NCBI GenBank assembly: GCA_015075745.1
Contig: JABTTW010000001.1
Location: 1,240,001-1,304,000, forward strand
Reading direction: 5' to 3'
Source: Planctomycetia bacterium
Lineage (GTDB): Bacteria; Planctomycetota; Phycisphaerae; UBA1845; UTPLA1
Length of the DNA stretch: 64,000 bases
This document shows positions 19,239 to 26,831 of the stretch, in pieces. The notes under the pieces were generated by a model that made no database searches, had not been told where the DNA came from, and worked only from the letters and a program-made list of their open reading frames with translations. The stretch's first letter is position 1; every line of letters starts with the position of its first letter. Both the position numbers and the translations under genes were made by a program.

Positions 19239-20180
19239 TCAAACGAGCCGGTCTCCCACGTTGTTCTCCGTCAGACCATCCTTATTATCGGCAGGAAACA
19301 TCTTTGCCATCGCGTCAAGATGCGTCCACTGGAGGTCGATTTCGCGCCTGATGCCCGCCAGATCCATCGACGAACGCGTGTACCTTGTTTGACGCATCGC
19401 ATACTCTTCAAGCGGTACTCCGTCGGGTCGAGCGTTGATACGGTAGCGCAAACCATCGAAGATTTCATAAAGGGGGAAAAGTCCGCATCCCACCGCGTGG
19501 CGGACGAGGTCAACGCTCTCTTCGGCTTCCGACTTCCAACCGGTAGGGCAGGGCGAGAGCATCACCATAAACCGGAATCCTCGCACTCGGCGGGCGAACC
19601 TCACCTTCCGAAGGAAGTCGTCCCGATGGGCGACGGAAAGGGTAGCGGCGTACGGTATGCGGTGGGCGGCCATGATCGACATGATGTCCTTTTTACGCTC
19701 GCCCTTTCCGAAGGGTGACGTGGTGGTGGCGATGCCCATTGGGGTAGCGCTACTTCGCTGGCCGCCCGTGTTTCCATATATCTCGTTATCATAGCAGATG
19801 TAGATGATGTCCTCGTTACGCTCGGCCGCTGCGGAGAGGGTGGCGATCCCAATGTCGAAAGTGCCGCCGTCGCCCGCCCAGCAAATGACGGGAGCATCTT
19901 CGTCGCACAGCCGCTGCACTGTGCTCAGGCCGGTAGCCACCGCGGGACTGCTCGCAAAGGTCGTTGCGACGACGGGGGCGCCGTAAGCACTGCCCGGAAA
20001 CGCGCCGGCGGTAACGATTCCACAGCACGCTGGAATTGCCATAATGGGCTTCTCACCGCCCAGTCCCTGGTCGAGAAGCTGCAGGCCGAGGGACATCCCG
20101 CAGCCGGCGCAATTGGTGTTCCCGCAGCGAAGAAGATGTTCGCCTTGGATTTGCAGGCTTCCTGTCAACGTCTGGGTCAT
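19239..20180 (-). CDS. porB: 2-oxoacid:ferredoxin oxidoreductase, beta subunit (TPP-binding)
   Basis: A 313-residue beta subunit: CGNTNCAGCGMS near residue 19 and the later CPTGW provide [4Fe-4S] ligands typical of the pyruvate:ferredoxin oxidoreductase beta chain, and GDGGTFDIGIAT with the downstream YDNEIYGNTGGQ is the thiamine-diphosphate/Mg motif. NTGGQRSS is characteristic of the PorB group. The enzyme converts pyruvate (or another 2-oxoacid) and CoA to acyl-CoA, CO2 and reduced ferredoxin in the cytoplasm. It overlaps porA by ATGA, fitting stoichiometric synthesis. Pyruvate is the likeliest substrate by subunit composition, but not proven. Confidence 0.9.
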   Translation of the reverse strand: MTQTLTGSLQIQGEHLLRCGNTNCAGCGMSLGLQLLDQGLGGEKPIMAIPACCGIVTAGAFPGSAYGAPVVATTFASSPAVATGLSTVQRLCDEDAPVICWAGDGGTFDIGIATLSAAAERNEDIIYICYDNEIYGNTGGQRSSATPMGIATTTSPFGKGERKKDIMSIMAAHRIPYAATLSVAHRDDFLRKVRFARRVRGFRFMVMLSPCPTGWKSEAEESVDLVRHAVGCGLFPLYEIFDGLRYRINARPDGVPLEEYAMRQTRYTRSSMDLAGIRREIDLQWTHLDAMAKMFPADNKDGLTENNVGDRLV

Positions 20181-21349
20181 ACAGTCGCCTCCTCCCAGAT
20201 CGGTTCTGTTTCCGATCTGCGGGCTTCCAGGTCGTCGATGATTCCCTCGATGATCTCCGGTGTAACGTCGCCGCCCCCAAGACCGACGATGTAATCCTGC
20301 AGAATGACGTCCCGGGGACCTCGAAGGCTCGCGGCCGCTTCCTGCCAGAAGATTCCGCCGGAGCCGGGAGAGTGGTTCCGATCCAACACGCCAATGCGCT
20401 TAGCCGTCGTGACCGCGGCCCTGAGTTCTTTGCGCGGGAATGGTCTGAACTGCTTTACTTTAATCATTCCGACGCGTCGGCCGCGCTCGCGCTGCCGGGG
20501 GATAACGCGCCGCAGAGTGCGGGCCATCGTATTGCACGCAACGACGATCGTATCGGCGTCATCAGTTTGAAGGGTCGTCAGGGGGCCATCCGGACGGCGC
20601 CCGAAGACCTTTTCGAATTCGTCAATGGCCTGGTTGAGAACTTCGGGAACGCGTTCCATCGCGATCTGAATCTCGCGACGATGGTGCGCTGTTTCTCGCG
20701 GCCAGGTAAGCCCGCCGACGGTGACCGCCTTTCCGGGGTGCAGATAATGCGGCACCTTGCAGGCGGGAAGATATCGATCGACCTGCTCCTGCGTAGGCAG
20801 TTCAACGACCATTTGAGTGTGGGAAATGATGAATCCATCCATCGCGACCATGACCGGGAGGAGCACGCGAGGATCTTCCGCCACGCGAAAGGCGAGGAGA
20901 ATGGTGTCGACGAGGTCCTGATGGGATTCGGTGTAGAACTGAATCCATGCCGCATCACGAAGAGCGAGGCTGTCGCCCTGATCCACCCAGATATTCCATG
21001 GCGGACCGAGTGTGCGGTTGACGGCGATGAGCACAATGGGGAGGCGATAATAGCCGGCGGCGAAAATGTTCTCTGTCATGTATGCCAGCCCGTTGGCGCT
21101 GGATGCGGTGAACGAGCGGGCGCCGCCCAGGGAGGCGCCGATGCAAACGCCCATGGCGGAGTGTTCCGATTCCACCGGAACGACGCGACCTTTGGTGAAC
21201 GCAAAACTACTGAGATACTCAATGATCTCGGTCTGTGGCGTGATGGGGTATGCGCCGGCACAGCAGCCCCGTGCCGCGCGATTAGCCTCCCCTGCAAGCG
21301 CCAGTGTCTGACCCGCAGCGTTATTGCCTGTTACAAGTGCTCTAGCCAT
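20177..21349 (-). CDS. porA: 2-oxoacid:ferredoxin oxidoreductase, alpha subunit
   Basis: A 390-residue alpha subunit with the pyrimidine-domain start GCCAGAYPITPQTEIIEYLS, the conserved ESEHSAMGVCIGASLGGARSFTASSA region (residues about 58-84), the PIVLIAVNRTLGPPWNI loop and the C-terminal FRPFPRKELRAAV and LDRNHSPGSGG stretches typical of PorA. It pairs with PorB to make the catalytic TPP unit. Its stop overlaps the porB start, and it begins 47 bases after the fused gamma/flavoprotein gene. All three therefore read as one operon. The alpha/beta/gamma organisation is the heterotetramer type rather than the single-chain enzyme. Confidence 0.92.
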   Translation of the reverse strand: MARALVTGNNAAGQTLALAGEANRAARGCCAGAYPITPQTEIIEYLSSFAFTKGRVVPVESEHSAMGVCIGASLGGARSFTASSANGLAYMTENIFAAGYYRLPIVLIAVNRTLGPPWNIWVDQGDSLALRDAAWIQFYTESHQDLVDTILLAFRVAEDPRVLLPVMVAMDGFIISHTQMVVELPTQEQVDRYLPACKVPHYLHPGKAVTVGGLTWPRETAHHRREIQIAMERVPEVLNQAIDEFEKVFGRRPDGPLTTLQTDDADTIVVACNTMARTLRRVIPRQRERGRRVGMIKVKQFRPFPRKELRAAVTTAKRIGVLDRNHSPGSGGIFWQEAAASLRGPRDVILQDYIVGLGGGDVTPEIIEGIIDDLEARRSETEPIWEEATV

Positions 21350-21396: not shown

Positions 21397-23607
21397 TTAA
21401 AGTTCCGCCATATAGATCACACCGCGCGGACACTGCGTCGCGCAGATGCCGCAGCCTTTGCAGTAGTCGTAGTCAAAAAGATATCCGTCGCCGTCCCGGC
21501 GGAGGATCCCCTCGGGGCAATACTCCACGCATCGATCGCAACCGTTGCAGACGCCGCAACTCATGCAACGGGCCGCCTCGAGCATTGCGTCGGGCTTGTT
21601 GTCTTCGTACCCCAGGCGGACTTCTGAAAACGTATGCCGTCGTGTCGTGGCAGATAGATGCCGGCTACGGTAGGCGGGGACCCGGGAGAAAACATGCATG
21701 TGCATGGCATCCGGTCCCGCCACCCCTACCGACTCGGCCGCCCCCACGGTTTCGTCGGAAAGCGTGCGATGAATGTGCTGTGCGGCGCGACGCCCGTTAC
21801 CAATGGCCGCGGCGACGGTACCGTCATTCGTCGCAAAGTCGCCGCCGACAAAGATAGGCGAACCCGAAAGACCAAGCAGACGCGTGCGATCGGAGATCTC
21901 CGCTCCCTCGGGCAAAATTGAAAGATCGGAGGACTGACCGAGCGCAAGAATGATACGGTCACAAGGCAGCTCGAACTCGTTGCCCTCCGCGACTTCCGGA
22001 ATCGGCTGACGACGACCGCTCTTATCCGGTGGGCCAAGCGTCATTCGTCGGCAGGAAAGAAGCATGGAATCTCTGACTTCACGAAGCCGAACGGGCGCGA
22101 CCAGTTCACGCAGGGTGACGCCCTCTTCGAGAGCCTCGTCGATTTCCTCGCGGATCGCAGGCATCTCCCGCCGGCTTCGTCGATAAACAACCTCCACCGC
22201 CGAGGCGCCGACGCGCAGCGCCGAACGTGCTGCATCGATAGCGGTGTTTCCGCCGCCGATGACAATCACGCGCTCGCCTCGCAGGGCCACTTTGTCATGC
22301 TTGATGCGATCGAGAAAGTCGATGCCCTCAATAACCCGGCGGGAATTTGCAGGACCCAGATCGAGAGATCGAATCTGCTGCAGGCCGGTGGCCACGAATA
22401 CGGCATCGTACTGTCGCGATAAATCCATGAGGCGCGCGCGGTCGACCTGCGCTTTAACGTGAAGATTCACGCCATGCTGCACGACGTAGTCGATCTCCGC
22501 ATCAAGCACTTCCGGCGGCAGGCGATATGAAGGAATGCCGTAGCGAAGGAGACCCCCGGCCTCTTCAGCACCGTCAAACGCGTCCACGCGGTAGCCGAGC
22601 TTCGCCAGATGATACGCCGCGCTGAGCCCGGCGGGTCCGGTACCGATCACCGCGACTCGGTGCACACGCCACGGCCTCGACGGTTTCGGGCGAGTCCCCT
22701 TGTCGGCGGCCGCCCGCTCAAGGTCTCGAATCTGCACGGGCTCATCGAAGATCGCACGATTGCACGAATCGATGCAGGGCGCGGGGCAGACTCTGCCGCA
22801 GACTGCCGGAAGCGGTGTGGTCTGCAACAGCGTCGAGAGTGCCTCGTCGTAGTCGCCGCGCCGCAGGCAGCGAACCAAGGACTGAATGTCGTTTCCCGCT
22901 GGGCATGCATGCGAGCAGGGCGAAAGCAACTCATGTCGGTGCGGTTGGCGGTTCGCCCACGATCCCGTACGGATGGCCGACTGCTCGCCCACGTGTTCGT
23001 CGAGCAAGTCGATGGGCGGCGGCTTTTGAGGTGCCCGGCGTGTTTCAATGGGCGTGCCCGGAAGCTCTATTCCGCAGATCGCGTCAAATGCCTCGCGGGC
23101 CGCGCCGACATTCGCCCCGTCAAAGCGCAGATCGCCCAGTGAATCGGCAACCGACTCCCACGGCTCGCCGAGGATTCTCAGAACGGCGCCCAGCATGGTC
23201 GTGTTCACGATCGGGACCGACTTGGTTCCGAGCTTGTGCTTGATGGCGATGCCCGTGGCATCGATGGAGGCCACGTGTCGCCCCGCGAATTCCGGACCGA
23301 GGCTCTCTGGGTCTTCAGGGGTGTTAAGGATGATCCAGCCGTCCGGTTTGAGACCCGTGAGAATCGACGGGCTGATGAGTGTGCGATCGAGGACGATGAC
23401 GTGATCGGGCGTTCGAACCTGATTGTGATTGACTATTTCGTACTCGTCGACCCGGACATAGGCCTGAAGCGGCGCCCCTGATCTTTCCGCTGCATAAACC
23501 CCAAAGGCCTGGGCAAACTGTCCCCGAAGGAAATAGGACGTGGCGATGAGCTTTGCCAGCGTGACGCCGCCCTGCCCGCCACGGCCGTAGATGGTCATTT
23601 CGATCAT
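21397..23607 (-). CDS. porG: Fusion: oxoacid oxidoreductase gamma subunit - GltD-like FAD/NAD(P) flavoprotein - 2x[4Fe-4S] ferredoxin (delta)
   Basis: This 736-residue protein joins three units. Residues 1-185 are the PorG gamma domain (IYGRGGQGGVTLAKLI). About 225-300 is a Fer4_20-type segment (CSHACPAGNDI, CGRVCPAPCIDSC). About 315-620 is a GltD/BCR-like flavoprotein with an FAD dinucleotide fold (VIGTGPAGLSAAYHL) and a second nucleotide fold (VIVIGGGNTAIDAAR). The last 55 residues are a PorD ferredoxin with CMSCGVCNGCDRC and CKGCGICATQCPRG. Such a fusion could pass electrons between the oxoacid oxidoreductase and NAD(P)H. The ATG at 23607 is chosen because the gamma domain starts there; 44 upstream in-frame residues are unlike it. 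First gene of the porG-porA-porB run. Confidence 0.88.
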   Translation of the reverse strand: MIEMTIYGRGGQGGVTLAKLIATSYFLRGQFAQAFGVYAAERSGAPLQAYVRVDEYEIVNHNQVRTPDHVIVLDRTLISPSILTGLKPDGWIILNTPEDPESLGPEFAGRHVASIDATGIAIKHKLGTKSVPIVNTTMLGAVLRILGEPWESVADSLGDLRFDGANVGAAREAFDAICGIELPGTPIETRRAPQKPPPIDLLDEHVGEQSAIRTGSWANRQPHRHELLSPCSHACPAGNDIQSLVRCLRRGDYDEALSTLLQTTPLPAVCGRVCPAPCIDSCNRAIFDEPVQIRDLERAAADKGTRPKPSRPWRVHRVAVIGTGPAGLSAAYHLAKLGYRVDAFDGAEEAGGLLRYGIPSYRLPPEVLDAEIDYVVQHGVNLHVKAQVDRARLMDLSRQYDAVFVATGLQQIRSLDLGPANSRRVIEGIDFLDRIKHDKVALRGERVIVIGGGNTAIDAARSALRVGASAVEVVYRRSRREMPAIREEIDEALEEGVTLRELVAPVRLREVRDSMLLSCRRMTLGPPDKSGRRQPIPEVAEGNEFELPCDRIILALGQSSDLSILPEGAEISDRTRLLGLSGSPIFVGGDFATNDGTVAAAIGNGRRAAQHIHRTLSDETVGAAESVGVAGPDAMHMHVFSRVPAYRSRHLSATTRRHTFSEVRLGYEDNKPDAMLEAARCMSCGVCNGCDRCVEYCPEGILRRDGDGYLFDYDYCKGCGICATQCPRGVIYMAEL

Positions 23608-23987
23608 GCTGCACCACCGATTGGGTTGGTATCTCCGCCCCGCGCCGCCCAGGAGAAGCCTCCCCAGTGAGAGTAAGCAATGCGACGCGGGGGGCCGACA
23701 CTTGGAGACACGGCAAACGGCATGCCGCTGAGGCTCCATATCGTGCCTAAAGGCCGAGCATTCGTCCCGATGCGATCCTCTCCACCCTGAAAACGGGCGG
23801 TTCAGAAATCCTCAGGGCGGGCAGACCCGTGATTTCGCGGGGTCGGATGCTGAACTTCCCTCAACGCATGGAGAATTGAGGGCAGAAACGGCTGCGGAGG
23901 GGGTACCTGAAATGACACGTGATTTTGCAGTCCGGCCGGTTTTTGAATTCGTGCCAATAAACAGGAGACAACAAACGGGAGATTGCC
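23608..23987. other. Intergenic region between divergent por operon and small gene
   Basis: This 380-base stretch holds an in-frame but unconvincing 5' extension of the fused por gene (to 23739) and a 7-bp stem hairpin CCCTCAA/TTGAGGG at 23858-23882 with an 11-base loop. No clear promoter hexamer pair was found. It must contain the minus-strand promoter of the por operon. Confidence 0.4.
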
Positions 23988-24161: not shown

Positions 24162-25361
24162 TTACCGCTGGTCGATCGGAACGACCTTCAGGTCCGTCGG
24201 ACCGTCGTACACCGCACGCGGCCGGAAGATGCGGTTCTCCGGCAAATATTCCAGCACACGGGCAGCCCATCCGGCAGTGCGGGACACGGCGAAGATCACT
24301 GGGAAAAGCGGGGTCGGGAAGCCCAGCGCGTGATAGACGATGCCGCTGTAGTAGTCCACGTTTGGATAAATCGGCTTGCCCTTGGCCTTCATCTCGCCCA
24401 GAAACAGATTCTCAACCTCGACCGCCGTTCGGTACAGCGACTCCATGCCCTTTTCTTTACAAAGCGCCTCGGCGTGCTTCTTGAGAACGAGCGCCCGCGG
24501 GTCATACGCCTTGTACACCCGGTGCCCAAAGCCGATGACCTTTTGACCTTTTGCGATTCGATCGGCGACCCAGGCGGCGGCCTTCTCGGGCCCGCCGATG
24601 GCTTTCAGATCATCCAACGCTGCCTCGTTTGCCCCGCCGTGCAGCGGCCCGCGGAGTGAGCCGATCGCCGCCGCGATCGTAGAGTACATATCCGCCAACG
24701 AGCTGTGGACGACCATCGCGGTGAACGTCGAGGCGTTCATGCCGTGATCCGCCTGAAGAATCAGGCAGATGTCCATGAGCTTCTCGGTGACCGCGGTCGG
24801 GCGCTCTCCGGACATCTGATAAAGATAATTCGCGGTGAACGACAGCGAAGGATCGGGCTGGATGATCGGCAGCCCCCTGCGCGCTCGGGCAATCGCGGCG
24901 CCGATGCTCCGCGTGCGTGCCATGATTCGAATGGCAATCTCGGTCTCCATCTCGACGGCGTCCGCGGCATTCGACACGCTATGCGTAACAACAAGCGAGT
25001 CCTTATCGAGACAGGCAAGAGCGGCAACCGCTGCCTGTAGTACATTCATCGGATGCGCGTCGCGCGGCATGGACTCAATAAACTTGATGATGACATCGGG
25101 CAGATCGCCGCTCTTGGCGAGACGCTCACGAAAACCGGCGAACTCCTTCTTATTAGGCAGCTTGCCGAAGATGAGGAGATAGGCGACTTCATCAAATGCG
25201 CAATGATCGCTGAGGTCGGCAATGTCGTAGCCGCGATAGTTGAGGTGACCGGCCTCGCCATCCACGTAGCCGACCTTGCTGACGTTGGTGATGGCGCCTT
25301 CGAGCCCTCGACCCAACTCAATCGTGCAGGGGAACTCAACTCGGCCAAGGAACTTCGGCAT
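24162..25361 (-). CDS. gltA: Citrate synthase
   Basis: A 399-residue citrate synthase of the type without a long N-terminal NADH-regulatory domain: it begins GLEGAITNVSKVGYVDGEAG, LNYRGYDIADL, then GPLHGGANEAALDDL and GFGHRVYKAYDPRA with the catalytic and oxaloacetate-binding histidines, and ends with FAVSRTAGWAARVLEY. It condenses acetyl-CoA with oxaloacetate in the TCA cycle. An AGAGG RBS precedes the ATG by eight bases. A methylcitrate synthase role is possible from the short length, but the TCA role is more likely next to succinyl-CoA synthetase, from which it is divergent by 294 bases. Confidence 0.93.
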   Translation of the reverse strand: MPKFLGRVEFPCTIELGRGLEGAITNVSKVGYVDGEAGHLNYRGYDIADLSDHCAFDEVAYLLIFGKLPNKKEFAGFRERLAKSGDLPDVIIKFIESMPRDAHPMNVLQAAVAALACLDKDSLVVTHSVSNAADAVEMETEIAIRIMARTRSIGAAIARARRGLPIIQPDPSLSFTANYLYQMSGERPTAVTEKLMDICLILQADHGMNASTFTAMVVHSSLADMYSTIAAAIGSLRGPLHGGANEAALDDLKAIGGPEKAAAWVADRIAKGQKVIGFGHRVYKAYDPRALVLKKHAEALCKEKGMESLYRTAVEVENLFLGEMKAKGKPIYPNVDYYSGIVYHALGFPTPLFPVIFAVSRTAGWAARVLEYLPENRIFRPRAVYDGPTDLKVVPIDQR

Positions 25362-25439: not shown

Positions 25440-25655
25440 CACACGGCCATTTCGGGGCGATGCAGCCTTCTCCAACCCGCCCCGGCGACGATCGGCGCAG
25501 TTTGCAAACAGCAAGCAGCTCCGCTTCTCCGGAGCCCGACGGCTTTTTGCAACACCGGGCCACGCCGTCTAGGATATCGGCTTTCCATGGCCGGCTGATT
25601 TGCTTGTGCCGGCCACAGACCTTCGCACGAGTACCGACCATCTGGAGTGACCACC

Positions 25656-26831
25656 ATGAAAGTCCACGAATATCAGGCGCGACAGCTTCTCGCGGCCGCT
25701 GGGGCGCCGGTCCCCAGGTTTGAAGTCATCGACTCACCCGATCAGGCATCGTCAGCCATCAAGGCGCTGGGGGGCGGCAAGCTGGTCGTCAAAGCACAAG
25801 TCCATGCCGGCGGACGAGGCAAGGCCGGCTACGTCATCCTCTCCGACAACCAGGCCGAGATCGAAAAAAATTGCGCGCGGATGCTCGCCGAGCCCATGGT
25901 CTCCAAGCAGACCGGGCCGCAAGGCGTCAAGGTGCGAAAGATCCTCCTGGCCCCGGCCGTCGAGATCGAGAAAGAGTACTACGTCGGCATGGTGCTCGAT
26001 CGGGCCAAAGGCTGCCCGGTCATGATGGTGTCGAAGGAAGGCGGCGTGGAGATCGAAGAGGTCGCCGCCAAGAACCCGGACGCCATCGTCAAGGAATGGC
26101 TGCACCCGCTCCTGGGCTTGCAGCCGTATCAACTCCGGCGGCTCACGACCGCCCTGGGACTCGAGGGCGACCACGCCAAACAGGCGGCACGGACGATGGA
26201 CGTGCTCGCTCGAATCTACCTGGAGAAGGACTGCACATTGGCGGAGATCAACCCACTGGTCCTGACCAAGGGGACCAACGGAAAGCCCGGCGAGATTCAG
26301 GCGATCGACGCGAAGTTCAGCTTCGACGACAGCGCCCTCTTTCGTCACGCGGACATCGCGGAGCTCTTCGATCCGACCGAGGAGAACCCGAACGAGATCA
26401 GGGCCTCGAAGCACAACCTGAACTACATCGCCCTCGACGGAAACATCGGCTGCCTGGTTAACGGCGCCGGTCTGGCGATGGCCACCATGGACATCATCAA
26501 GCTCCACGGCGGAGACCCGGCGAACTTCCTGGACGTGGGCGGTAGCGTCACCAAGGACGGCGCCATCGAGGCATTCCGCATCATCCTGAGCGACGAAAAG
26601 GTAAAGGGCATCCTCGTCAACATCTTCGGCGGCATCGCCAAGTGCGACGTCATCGCCGACGCCCTCATCCACGCGGCTCGGGAAATCGGCTTCAAGATTC
26701 CCGTCGTCGTGCGGCTCGAAGGCACCAACGTCGACAAGGCCCGGGCAATGCTCAAAGAGGCGGCGATCCCGCAGCTCATACCCGCGGCCGACCTAACCGA
26801 CGCGGCGAAAAAAGTCTGCGCGGCGGTCTAA
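25656..26831 (+). CDS. sucC: Succinyl-CoA synthetase (ADP-forming), beta subunit
   Basis: A 391-residue ATP-grasp subunit starting MKVHEYQARQLLAAAGAPVP, with VVKAQVHAGGRGKAGYV (nucleotide loop), LAEINPLVLT (Mg/ATP site), NGAGLAMATMDIIKLHGG and GILVNIFGGIAKCDVIADAL (phosphate and CoA-ligase beta region). It couples succinyl-CoA hydrolysis to ATP or GTP formation in the TCA cycle. The ATG at 25656 has GGAG at a suitable distance; a GTG nine bases earlier is the alternative. The partner alpha subunit gene sucD does not follow. The next gene is a convergent methyltransferase, so sucD must lie elsewhere. Confidence 0.95.
   Translation: MKVHEYQARQLLAAAGAPVPRFEVIDSPDQASSAIKALGGGKLVVKAQVHAGGRGKAGYVILSDNQAEIEKNCARMLAEPMVSKQTGPQGVKVRKILLAPAVEIEKEYYVGMVLDRAKGCPVMMVSKEGGVEIEEVAAKNPDAIVKEWLHPLLGLQPYQLRRLTTALGLEGDHAKQAARTMDVLARIYLEKDCTLAEINPLVLTKGTNGKPGEIQAIDAKFSFDDSALFRHADIAELFDPTEENPNEIRASKHNLNYIALDGNIGCLVNGAGLAMATMDIIKLHGGDPANFLDVGGSVTKDGAIEAFRIILSDEKVKGILVNIFGGIAKCDVIADALIHAAREIGFKIPVVVRLEGTNVDKARAMLKEAAIPQLIPAADLTDAAKKVCAAV

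Follow-up and report, generated by a model that had tools for sequence, protein, structure and literature searches.

The window analysed in this study is a stretch of 64,000 nucleotides from a Planctomycetia bacterium (contig JABTTW010000001.1, positions 1,240,001 to 1,304,000), and on its minus strand a single gene joins the gamma subunit (PorG) of a 2-oxoacid oxidoreductase, a GltD-like flavoprotein and a PorD-like ferredoxin in one polypeptide. The genes for the catalytic subunits, porA and porB, follow on the same strand, and the three genes together probably encode a ferredoxin-independent, coenzyme A (CoA)-acylating 2-oxoacid:NADP+ oxidoreductase. An earlier note, made from the letters of the window, had described this fusion and its two companions, and the reading frame, the gene calls and domain searches with Pfam and NCBIfam bear it out, with the coordinates exact. 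The operon and the parts of the fusion protein, numbered throughout with the start methionine left out, are as follows (TPP, thiamine pyrophosphate; FAD, flavin adenine dinucleotide; pLDDT, predicted local distance difference test score).

21397..23607, minus strand: porG-gltD/Fd fusion gene, 736 aa with the methionine, full length in 40 of 101 genomes
23077..23607, minus strand: PorG (gamma) domain, residues 1-176, from Pfam POR, TIGR02175 and a fold match to 9bt4_F
22939..23076, minus strand: linker, residues 177-222, with a conserved TGxW motif (T213, G214 and W216 invariant) and low pLDDT at 189-224
22669..22938, minus strand: Fer4_20-like domain for two [4Fe-4S] clusters, with C230, C234, C269, C273, C277, C281 and E296
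21745..22668, minus strand: FAD and NAD(P) Rossmann domains, residues 313-620, with R361 and YRR 474-476
21553..21744, minus strand: segment 621-684 with RC680xxC683G, apparently a permuted counterpart of the N-terminal CxxC segment of NfnB
21400..21552, minus strand: PorD-like ferredoxin domain for two [4Fe-4S] clusters, residues 685-735, Pfam Fer4_7/Fer4_9, with eight cysteines invariant in 31 of 31 sequences
20177..21349, minus strand: porA (alpha, TPP pyrimidine domain), 390 aa, Pfam POR_N and PFOR_II
19239..20180, minus strand: porB (beta, TPP diphosphate domain, proximal [4Fe-4S] cluster), 313 aa, Pfam TPP_enzyme_C

The fusion gene is translated as a methionine, 735 further residues and a stop, with no internal stops; a frame break between the gamma and flavoprotein parts, which the earlier note had named as grounds for giving up its claim, is absent. 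A longer frame of 780 aa could start from an ATG at 23739, but the homologues instead start at MIEMT or MTELT, and this start is backed by an alignment of 31 rows and by locus L038. In Pfam, the protein matches POR at 9-158 (E 2.4e-25), Fer4_20 at 229-303 (E 8.7e-18), Pyr_redox_2 at 316-498 (E 2.7e-21) and a 4Fe-4S dicluster domain at 686-729. The NCBIfam model PorC_KorC (TIGR02175) scores 133.7 bits over residues 1-174, above its cut-off of 81.1 as expected of a gamma subunit; PRK12771 (NF009410) reaches 507.9 bits over 203-733, just under its cut-off of 516, and PorD_KorD (TIGR02179) 47.0 bits over 685-733, under a cut-off of 60.05. An AlphaFold2 model built from the 31-row alignment has a mean pLDDT of 76.9; the Rossmann part is modelled well and the first linker (189-224) poorly, and pLDDT falls below 50 at 684-735. 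Its PorG fold resembles chain 9bt4_F of the Methanosarcina acetivorans POR (Z 22.0, root-mean-square deviation (rmsd) 2.2 over 167 residues).

The fusion is real, inherited and widespread. Relatives were surveyed in 101 genomes, consisting of the bacterium's own genome and 100 others that include both same-genus genomes, and a match was called full length if it covered the query from residue 1-2 to 733-735. An in-frame TGA interrupts one of the full-length matches (G068), and the other 39 contain no stop. The fusion is fragmented in six more genomes: contig ends cut it in five, and in the sixth a 789-codon frame carries an insertion. The 31 aligned sequences are 52-68% identical to the window protein, and all retain the 16 cluster cysteines (230, 234, 269, 273, 277, 281, 680, 683, 686, 689, 692, 696, 715, 718, 721 and 725). 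In the window the fusion is followed by a 47-bp gap, porA, a 4-bp overlap and porB. Of 18 loci read in other genomes, 17 have all three genes side by side, and in a further 17 fused loci from other parts of the phylum porA adjoins the fusion every time. Absence from related genomes, the other observation that had been said to count against the fusion, is thus not what the survey found. When frames from 26 loci were clustered, other real genes were common to at most five, and there was no conserved neighbour except porAB; we take the larger clusters to reflect frames that overlap these same genes or run antisense to them. A conserved NfnA- or StnAB-like partner was not present in these 26 loci (the rest of the genome was not searched for one). 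The alpha and beta subunits have the TPP domains and beta cluster cysteines of PorABCD enzymes, with the CxxC of PorB found in 33 of 33 fused loci and the cysteine of PCPTG/PCPIG in all 27 loci that reach it; there is no separate delta subunit, and the ferredoxin part is the C-terminus of the fusion.

The flavoprotein part has the GltD-like FAD/NADPH fold, with matches to NfnABC, StnC, NfnI/NfnB and Xfn at Z 31.6-41.5. The closest folds are those of the NADPH-side subunits of Nfn-ABC and StnABC (9bov_A, Z 41.5, rmsd 2.6, 457 residues aligned; 8oh5_C, Z 39.9, rmsd 2.7, 456 aligned), with NfnB/NfnI behind them (Z 32.5-33.2). Cluster ligands were mapped by alignment with chain 4ylf_B, which is presumably Thermotoga NfnB. 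In NfnB the distal cluster is bound by C39, C42, C47 and C100, and the proximal cluster by C51, C90, C96 and E117 (PMC7596348). The proximal set maps to C234, C273 (C90), C277 (C96) and E296, and the distal ligands to C230 and C281 (C100), with C269 having no ligand counterpart. The positions of C39 and C42 lack cysteine in the fusion, which has H222 and E225 there. Residues 650-684 align with 4ylf_B 11-43, placing C680 and C683 on C39 and C42, at a local score of only 5.8 bits; the RCxxC motif is shifted likewise in alignment with the genome's own canonical GltD, and in the fold comparison StnC and NfnA of Nfn-ABC align through the RCxxCG segment in the same order as the fusion. The distal cluster may be ligated across domains, by C230 and C281 with C680 and C683, and the ferredoxin domain would then be held in the chain. 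The YRR sequence at 474-476 is invariant in 31 of 31 sequences. This motif has been described as an indicator of preference for NADP(H) over NAD(H) (PMC7596348), and on its presence NADP(H) can be favoured as the nucleotide.

In the proposed mechanism, a 2-oxoacid would be cleaved with CoA on the TPP bound by PorA and PorB, the likeliest substrate being pyruvate or a different small 2-oxoacid, and electrons would exit singly through the PorB [4Fe-4S] cluster into the fusion protein. The PorG part would dock the fusion on PorAB and the C-terminal ferredoxin domain would replace PorD, with the path running from the PorB cluster through the two ferredoxin-domain clusters and then the distal and proximal flavoprotein clusters to FAD, which would reduce NADP+ by hydride transfer. 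Oxidation would be the favoured direction, from the low-potential oxoacid couple to NADP+; judged by redox potentials, oxoacid oxidation with NADP+ is strongly downhill. The last leg, from ferredoxin to NADP+, has precedent, because isolated NfnL shows some ferredoxin-to-NADP+ half-confurcation (PMC9503767).

Several known systems resemble parts of this arrangement. Enzymes of the PorABCD type, such as the M. acetivorans POR (PDB 9bt4), have homologous PorA, PorB and PorG with the same fold and ligand motifs, but here a single chain holds both the gamma and the delta part, an FAD/NAD(P) flavoprotein lying between the two, and ferredoxin is presumably unneeded. The 2-oxoglutarate:NADP+ oxidoreductase of Azoarcus evansii reportedly carries its own NAD(P)-reducing flavoprotein, and the same is said of the phenylglyoxylate:NAD+ oxidoreductase PadEFGHI. 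In both, compared here by description rather than by sequence, the flavoprotein is reportedly a separate subunit, and the oxoacid specificity is different. PadEFGHI is named in PMC5109826. Pyruvate:NADP+ oxidoreductase (PNO) of Euglena, Cryptosporidium and some ciliates is a pyruvate:ferredoxin oxidoreductase (PFOR) fused to NADPH-cytochrome P450 reductase (PMC6993867); it too is an oxoacid:NADP+ enzyme hard-wired by gene fusion, but with another flavoprotein and another join, and a Pfam scan of the fusion, PorA and PorB found no NADPH-cytochrome P450 reductase domain. The flavoproteins of the StnC/NfnA(ABC) type (PMC10482914; PDB 9bov, 9n5u, 8oh5) are near relatives in fold, and the difference is that here the module is joined to PorG beside porAB and a StnAB-type partner is not conserved in the loci.

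A further likeness, in domain order, is to DsrL, which consists of two [4Fe-4S] clusters, FAD/NAD(P) domains, a linker and two further [4Fe-4S] clusters (PMC7596348). The fusion has the same order, the YRR motif and the RCxxCG segment after the Rossmann domains, and is 33.6% identical to a DsrL-like protein of Desulforhopalus sp. IMCC35007 (L070), whose gene adjoins two NIR_SIR (dsrAB-type) genes. A search for dsrA (TIGR02064) at E 0.001 gave no match in the genome, which is 97% complete. The survey of DsrL excluded genes linked with subunits of pyruvate/ketoisovalerate:ferredoxin oxidoreductase (PMC7596348), a linkage that the fusion has, being joined to porG and beside porAB; its authors had noticed the linkage with oxoacid oxidoreductases and set it aside. 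By the features compared, the fusion belongs to neither PNO nor DsrL; it would work like PNO while being built of PorABCD and DsrL-like parts. Hard-wired oxoacid:NAD(P) enzymes are known as a kind, and what appears to be new is the PorG-GltD/Fd architecture. Such a fusion is named nowhere in the titles and excerpts of the literature searched, which does not show that it is absent from print.

Unfused relatives are found in several phyla. In a sample of 392 genomes of the phylum searched at E 1e-110, a threshold that favours fused over unfused forms so that their frequencies are not comparable, 24 genomes match: 18 are fused (the window's own included), five have separate porG and gltD/Fd genes (L159, L161, L162, L164, L165) and in one a contig end truncates the locus (L160). 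The fusion also occurs, together with porA and porB, in Phycisphaerales SURF_32 (L056). Joined matches had also suggested a fusion in Desulfomonilaceae, Methylomirabilis and Tectomicrobia, and these candidates were dropped when a check of the frames showed separate genes; Desulfomonilaceae Ess09-10 (L059), Ca. Methylomirabilis (L062) and a Tectomicrobia genome (L063) each have four genes in the same order. In Ca. Hatepunaea (L058) the order is kept but some 1.7 kb separates porG from the next gene, and in L060 and L061 the order is porG-porA-porB-gltD/Fd. An uninterrupted fusion, with porA adjoining, was found in three of 198 genomes of the phylum of L059 (L166-L168). In five loci (L164, L165, L169, L170, L171) porG and gltD/Fd share one frame and only a single stop divides them; the search of the 198 genomes joins pieces in one frame, so the single-stop cases there are likewise no measure of frequency. 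The TGxW motif of the fusion linker is also present at the N-terminus of unfused GltD-Fd proteins.

When the joined parts from 47 loci were placed in a tree, all 33 fused rows fell into a single clade with one change of state (Shimodaira-Hasegawa-like approximate likelihood ratio test, 100), as did the 30 fused rows of an earlier 41-row tree that lacked the three fused rows of the second phylum. The three fused rows from the second phylum sit inside this clade, beside one planctomycete branch, which points to transfer between phyla. The 47-locus tree is a quick one, with its root set by hand on L060/L061 and two long-branched unfused rows, and a single origin is the simplest reading of it and not a proof. 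The fusion probably arose when a four-gene operon, porG-gltD/Fd-porA-porB, lost the stop between its first two genes, once. Tentatively, a broader interpretation may be offered, in which these enzymes would be a distinct ferredoxin-independent bacterial class that arose once by stop loss and spread between phyla, the DsrL-like module would be an interchangeable NADP(H) adaptor, and the cross-domain distal cluster would lock the ferredoxin domain into the wire. On the same tentative footing, the partners of the adaptor might include sulfite reductase, oxoacid oxidoreductase, a multihaem cytochrome and perhaps hydrogenase.

The earlier note had gone on to suggest a possible hard-wired oxoacid:NAD(P) oxidoreductase. 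This reading is the best fit to the full set of cluster ligands for a continuous chain, the YRR motif, the linkage of the module to porAB in fused and unfused form across phyla and the lack of a conserved bifurcation partner nearby; the fusion is less exceptional than was implied, since the linked but unfused arrangement exists in several phyla and had been noticed in the DsrL literature.

The substrate can be narrowed to some extent from the active site. PorA retains YPITP, the arginine of VNR and the glutamate of ESE in 33 of 33 fused loci. In Desulfovibrio PFOR the aligned counterparts of YPITP and VNR are Thr31 and Arg114, and that of the asparagine of GNTGG in PorB is Asn996, while oxalate oxidoreductase differs at the first motif, having YPIRP instead of YPITP. 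These residues would suit pyruvate or another small 2-oxoacid, and branched or aromatic ones would also be compatible. At PorB 136-140 the fused clade has GNTGG in all 27 of the 33 loci that reach it, compared with NTGGQ in single-chain PFOR; the unfused loci have MNTGI or MNTGV (11 of 11 reaching loci, of 14), as does M. acetivorans POR. PorA and PorB score far higher with the pyruvate/ketoisovalerate-type models of NCBIfam than with the 2-oxoglutarate models. A substrate call by NCBIfam equivalogs failed, all scores being below cut-off, and an inference by way of gene neighbours failed too, with only porAB conserved beside the fusion in the 26 loci.

The genome encodes other oxoacid enzymes: its second POR_N locus is a single-chain PFOR (TIGR02176, 1777 bits), and it also has a pyruvate dehydrogenase (PDH) E1 alpha gene with an E1-beta-like gene, and a 2-oxoglutarate dehydrogenase (OGDH) E1 scoring 1211.7 bits against a cut-off of 764. 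The fusion operon is therefore an extra oxoacid enzyme and not the sole one. A further locus of the genome, with an E1_dh family match (L054), contains a 746-aa E1-like protein (L142:2424-4661) that has no NCBIfam match at 1e-40 and is perhaps a fused oxoacid dehydrogenase E1. A dihydroorotate dehydrogenase-like gene comes directly after that for single-chain PFOR in two genomes (L139:1097-5942 and L043:10756-15611); it is of the PRK07565 family in the bacterium's own genome, and in L043 the pair is about 1 kb from the fusion operon.

Not all of the evidence favours a ferredoxin-independent oxidoreductase. The ferredoxin domain, modelled at a pLDDT below 50 (684-735), could serve to dock free ferredoxin as well; as a ligand type, E296 matches the bifurcating NfnB and not StnC, which has lysine; PorA and PorB fall under every NCBIfam equivalog cut-off, giving no substrate assignment; the PFOR, PDH and OGDH of the genome leave the need for the fusion enzyme unexplained; and one genome of the 18 loci (G004, locus L038) has the fusion without adjoining porAB. 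In that locus (L038:4490-10659) the fusion gene is followed by a DHODB-type FAD/NAD subunit gene and then by genes resembling those for the small and large subunits of [NiFe] hydrogenase, and a different contig carries a POR-type alpha gene. This arrangement is among the reasons for considering that the complex could be a branching hub, in which oxoacid electrons would have alternative exits, NADP+ on one side and free ferredoxin or some other partner on the other, NADPH may feed back, and the fusion would only raise local concentration. The C-terminal domain is, moreover, a complete two-cluster ferredoxin, and DsrL-like modules work with other partners, for example beside the dsrAB-type genes of L070. 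Such a hub is nevertheless rather unlikely, given the adjacency of porAB in 17 of 18 loci, against which the hydrogenase case is a single genome.

The residues E296 and R361, at the positions of NfnB E117 and R201, are retained in all 33 fused and all 14 unfused loci and match those discussed for bifurcation in NfnB, so the FAD environment alone does not rule out bifurcation. If the GltD-type FAD coupled NADPH to a high-potential acceptor, then the enzyme run in reverse would be an NADPH-driven, CO2-fixing oxoacid synthase. However, glutamate synthase also carries glutamate at the E296-equivalent site (PMC8097209), and in the near structural relative StnC, where lysine replaces the glutamate, the FAD does not bifurcate and supplies electrons to a linear chain of clusters (PMC10482914). 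With the residues undecided, and no NfnA/StnAB-like or other high-potential partner gene conserved in the 26 loci, a plain wire is the more likely and confurcation or bifurcation very improbable. Equally, few grounds exist for making the operon the 2-oxoglutarate-oxidising step of the tricarboxylic acid cycle, a role suggested by one neighbour outside the conserved unit:

24162..25361, minus strand: citrate synthase, from Pfam

A frame at 25647-26831 is presumably a succinyl-CoA synthetase-like gene, judged by its sequence and not by family search. Citrate synthase was dropped as a functional neighbour because its adjacency is not conserved, a match being present only in L049 among 18 other loci, and there about 7 kb away; the OGDH of the genome and the preference of PorA and PorB for models other than 2-oxoglutarate also make this assignment most doubtful. 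Finally, the in-frame TGA of G068 is the kind of feature that an assembly error or a decaying gene would leave, an explanation that can be regarded as refuted because the other 39 of 40 matches are stop-free, the ligands are invariant and the fused forms are a deep single clade.

If the operon does encode a 2-oxoacid:NADP+ oxidoreductase, then a widespread lineage would send these electrons to NADP+, and models of central carbon flux and NADPH supply in planctomycetes and neighbouring groups would change. To annotate such enzymes as pyruvate:ferredoxin oxidoreductase would then mislead, oxoacid:ferredoxin oxidoreductases being treated as ferredoxin enzymes. The stop-separated relatives would then be a clean natural series for what fusion adds to electron transfer.

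Modules of the GltD type were also seen in other contexts. An 867-aa protein (L050:6016-8619, minus strand) has several CxxCH haem motifs, a likely membrane span and then a GltD-Fd module; its N-terminal part has a weak Pfam match to MtrC/MtrF, and its GltD-Fd part is 48-49% identical to the window protein with the YRR motif lost, making a link between NAD(P)H and a multihaem cytochrome possible. A similar match, of 49%, lies at L051:1756-3327. In metagenome-assembled genomes of a Lachnospiraceae (L126:2396-7251) and an Enterococcaceae (L112:6040-10788), a GltD match adjoins matches to PorA and PorB.

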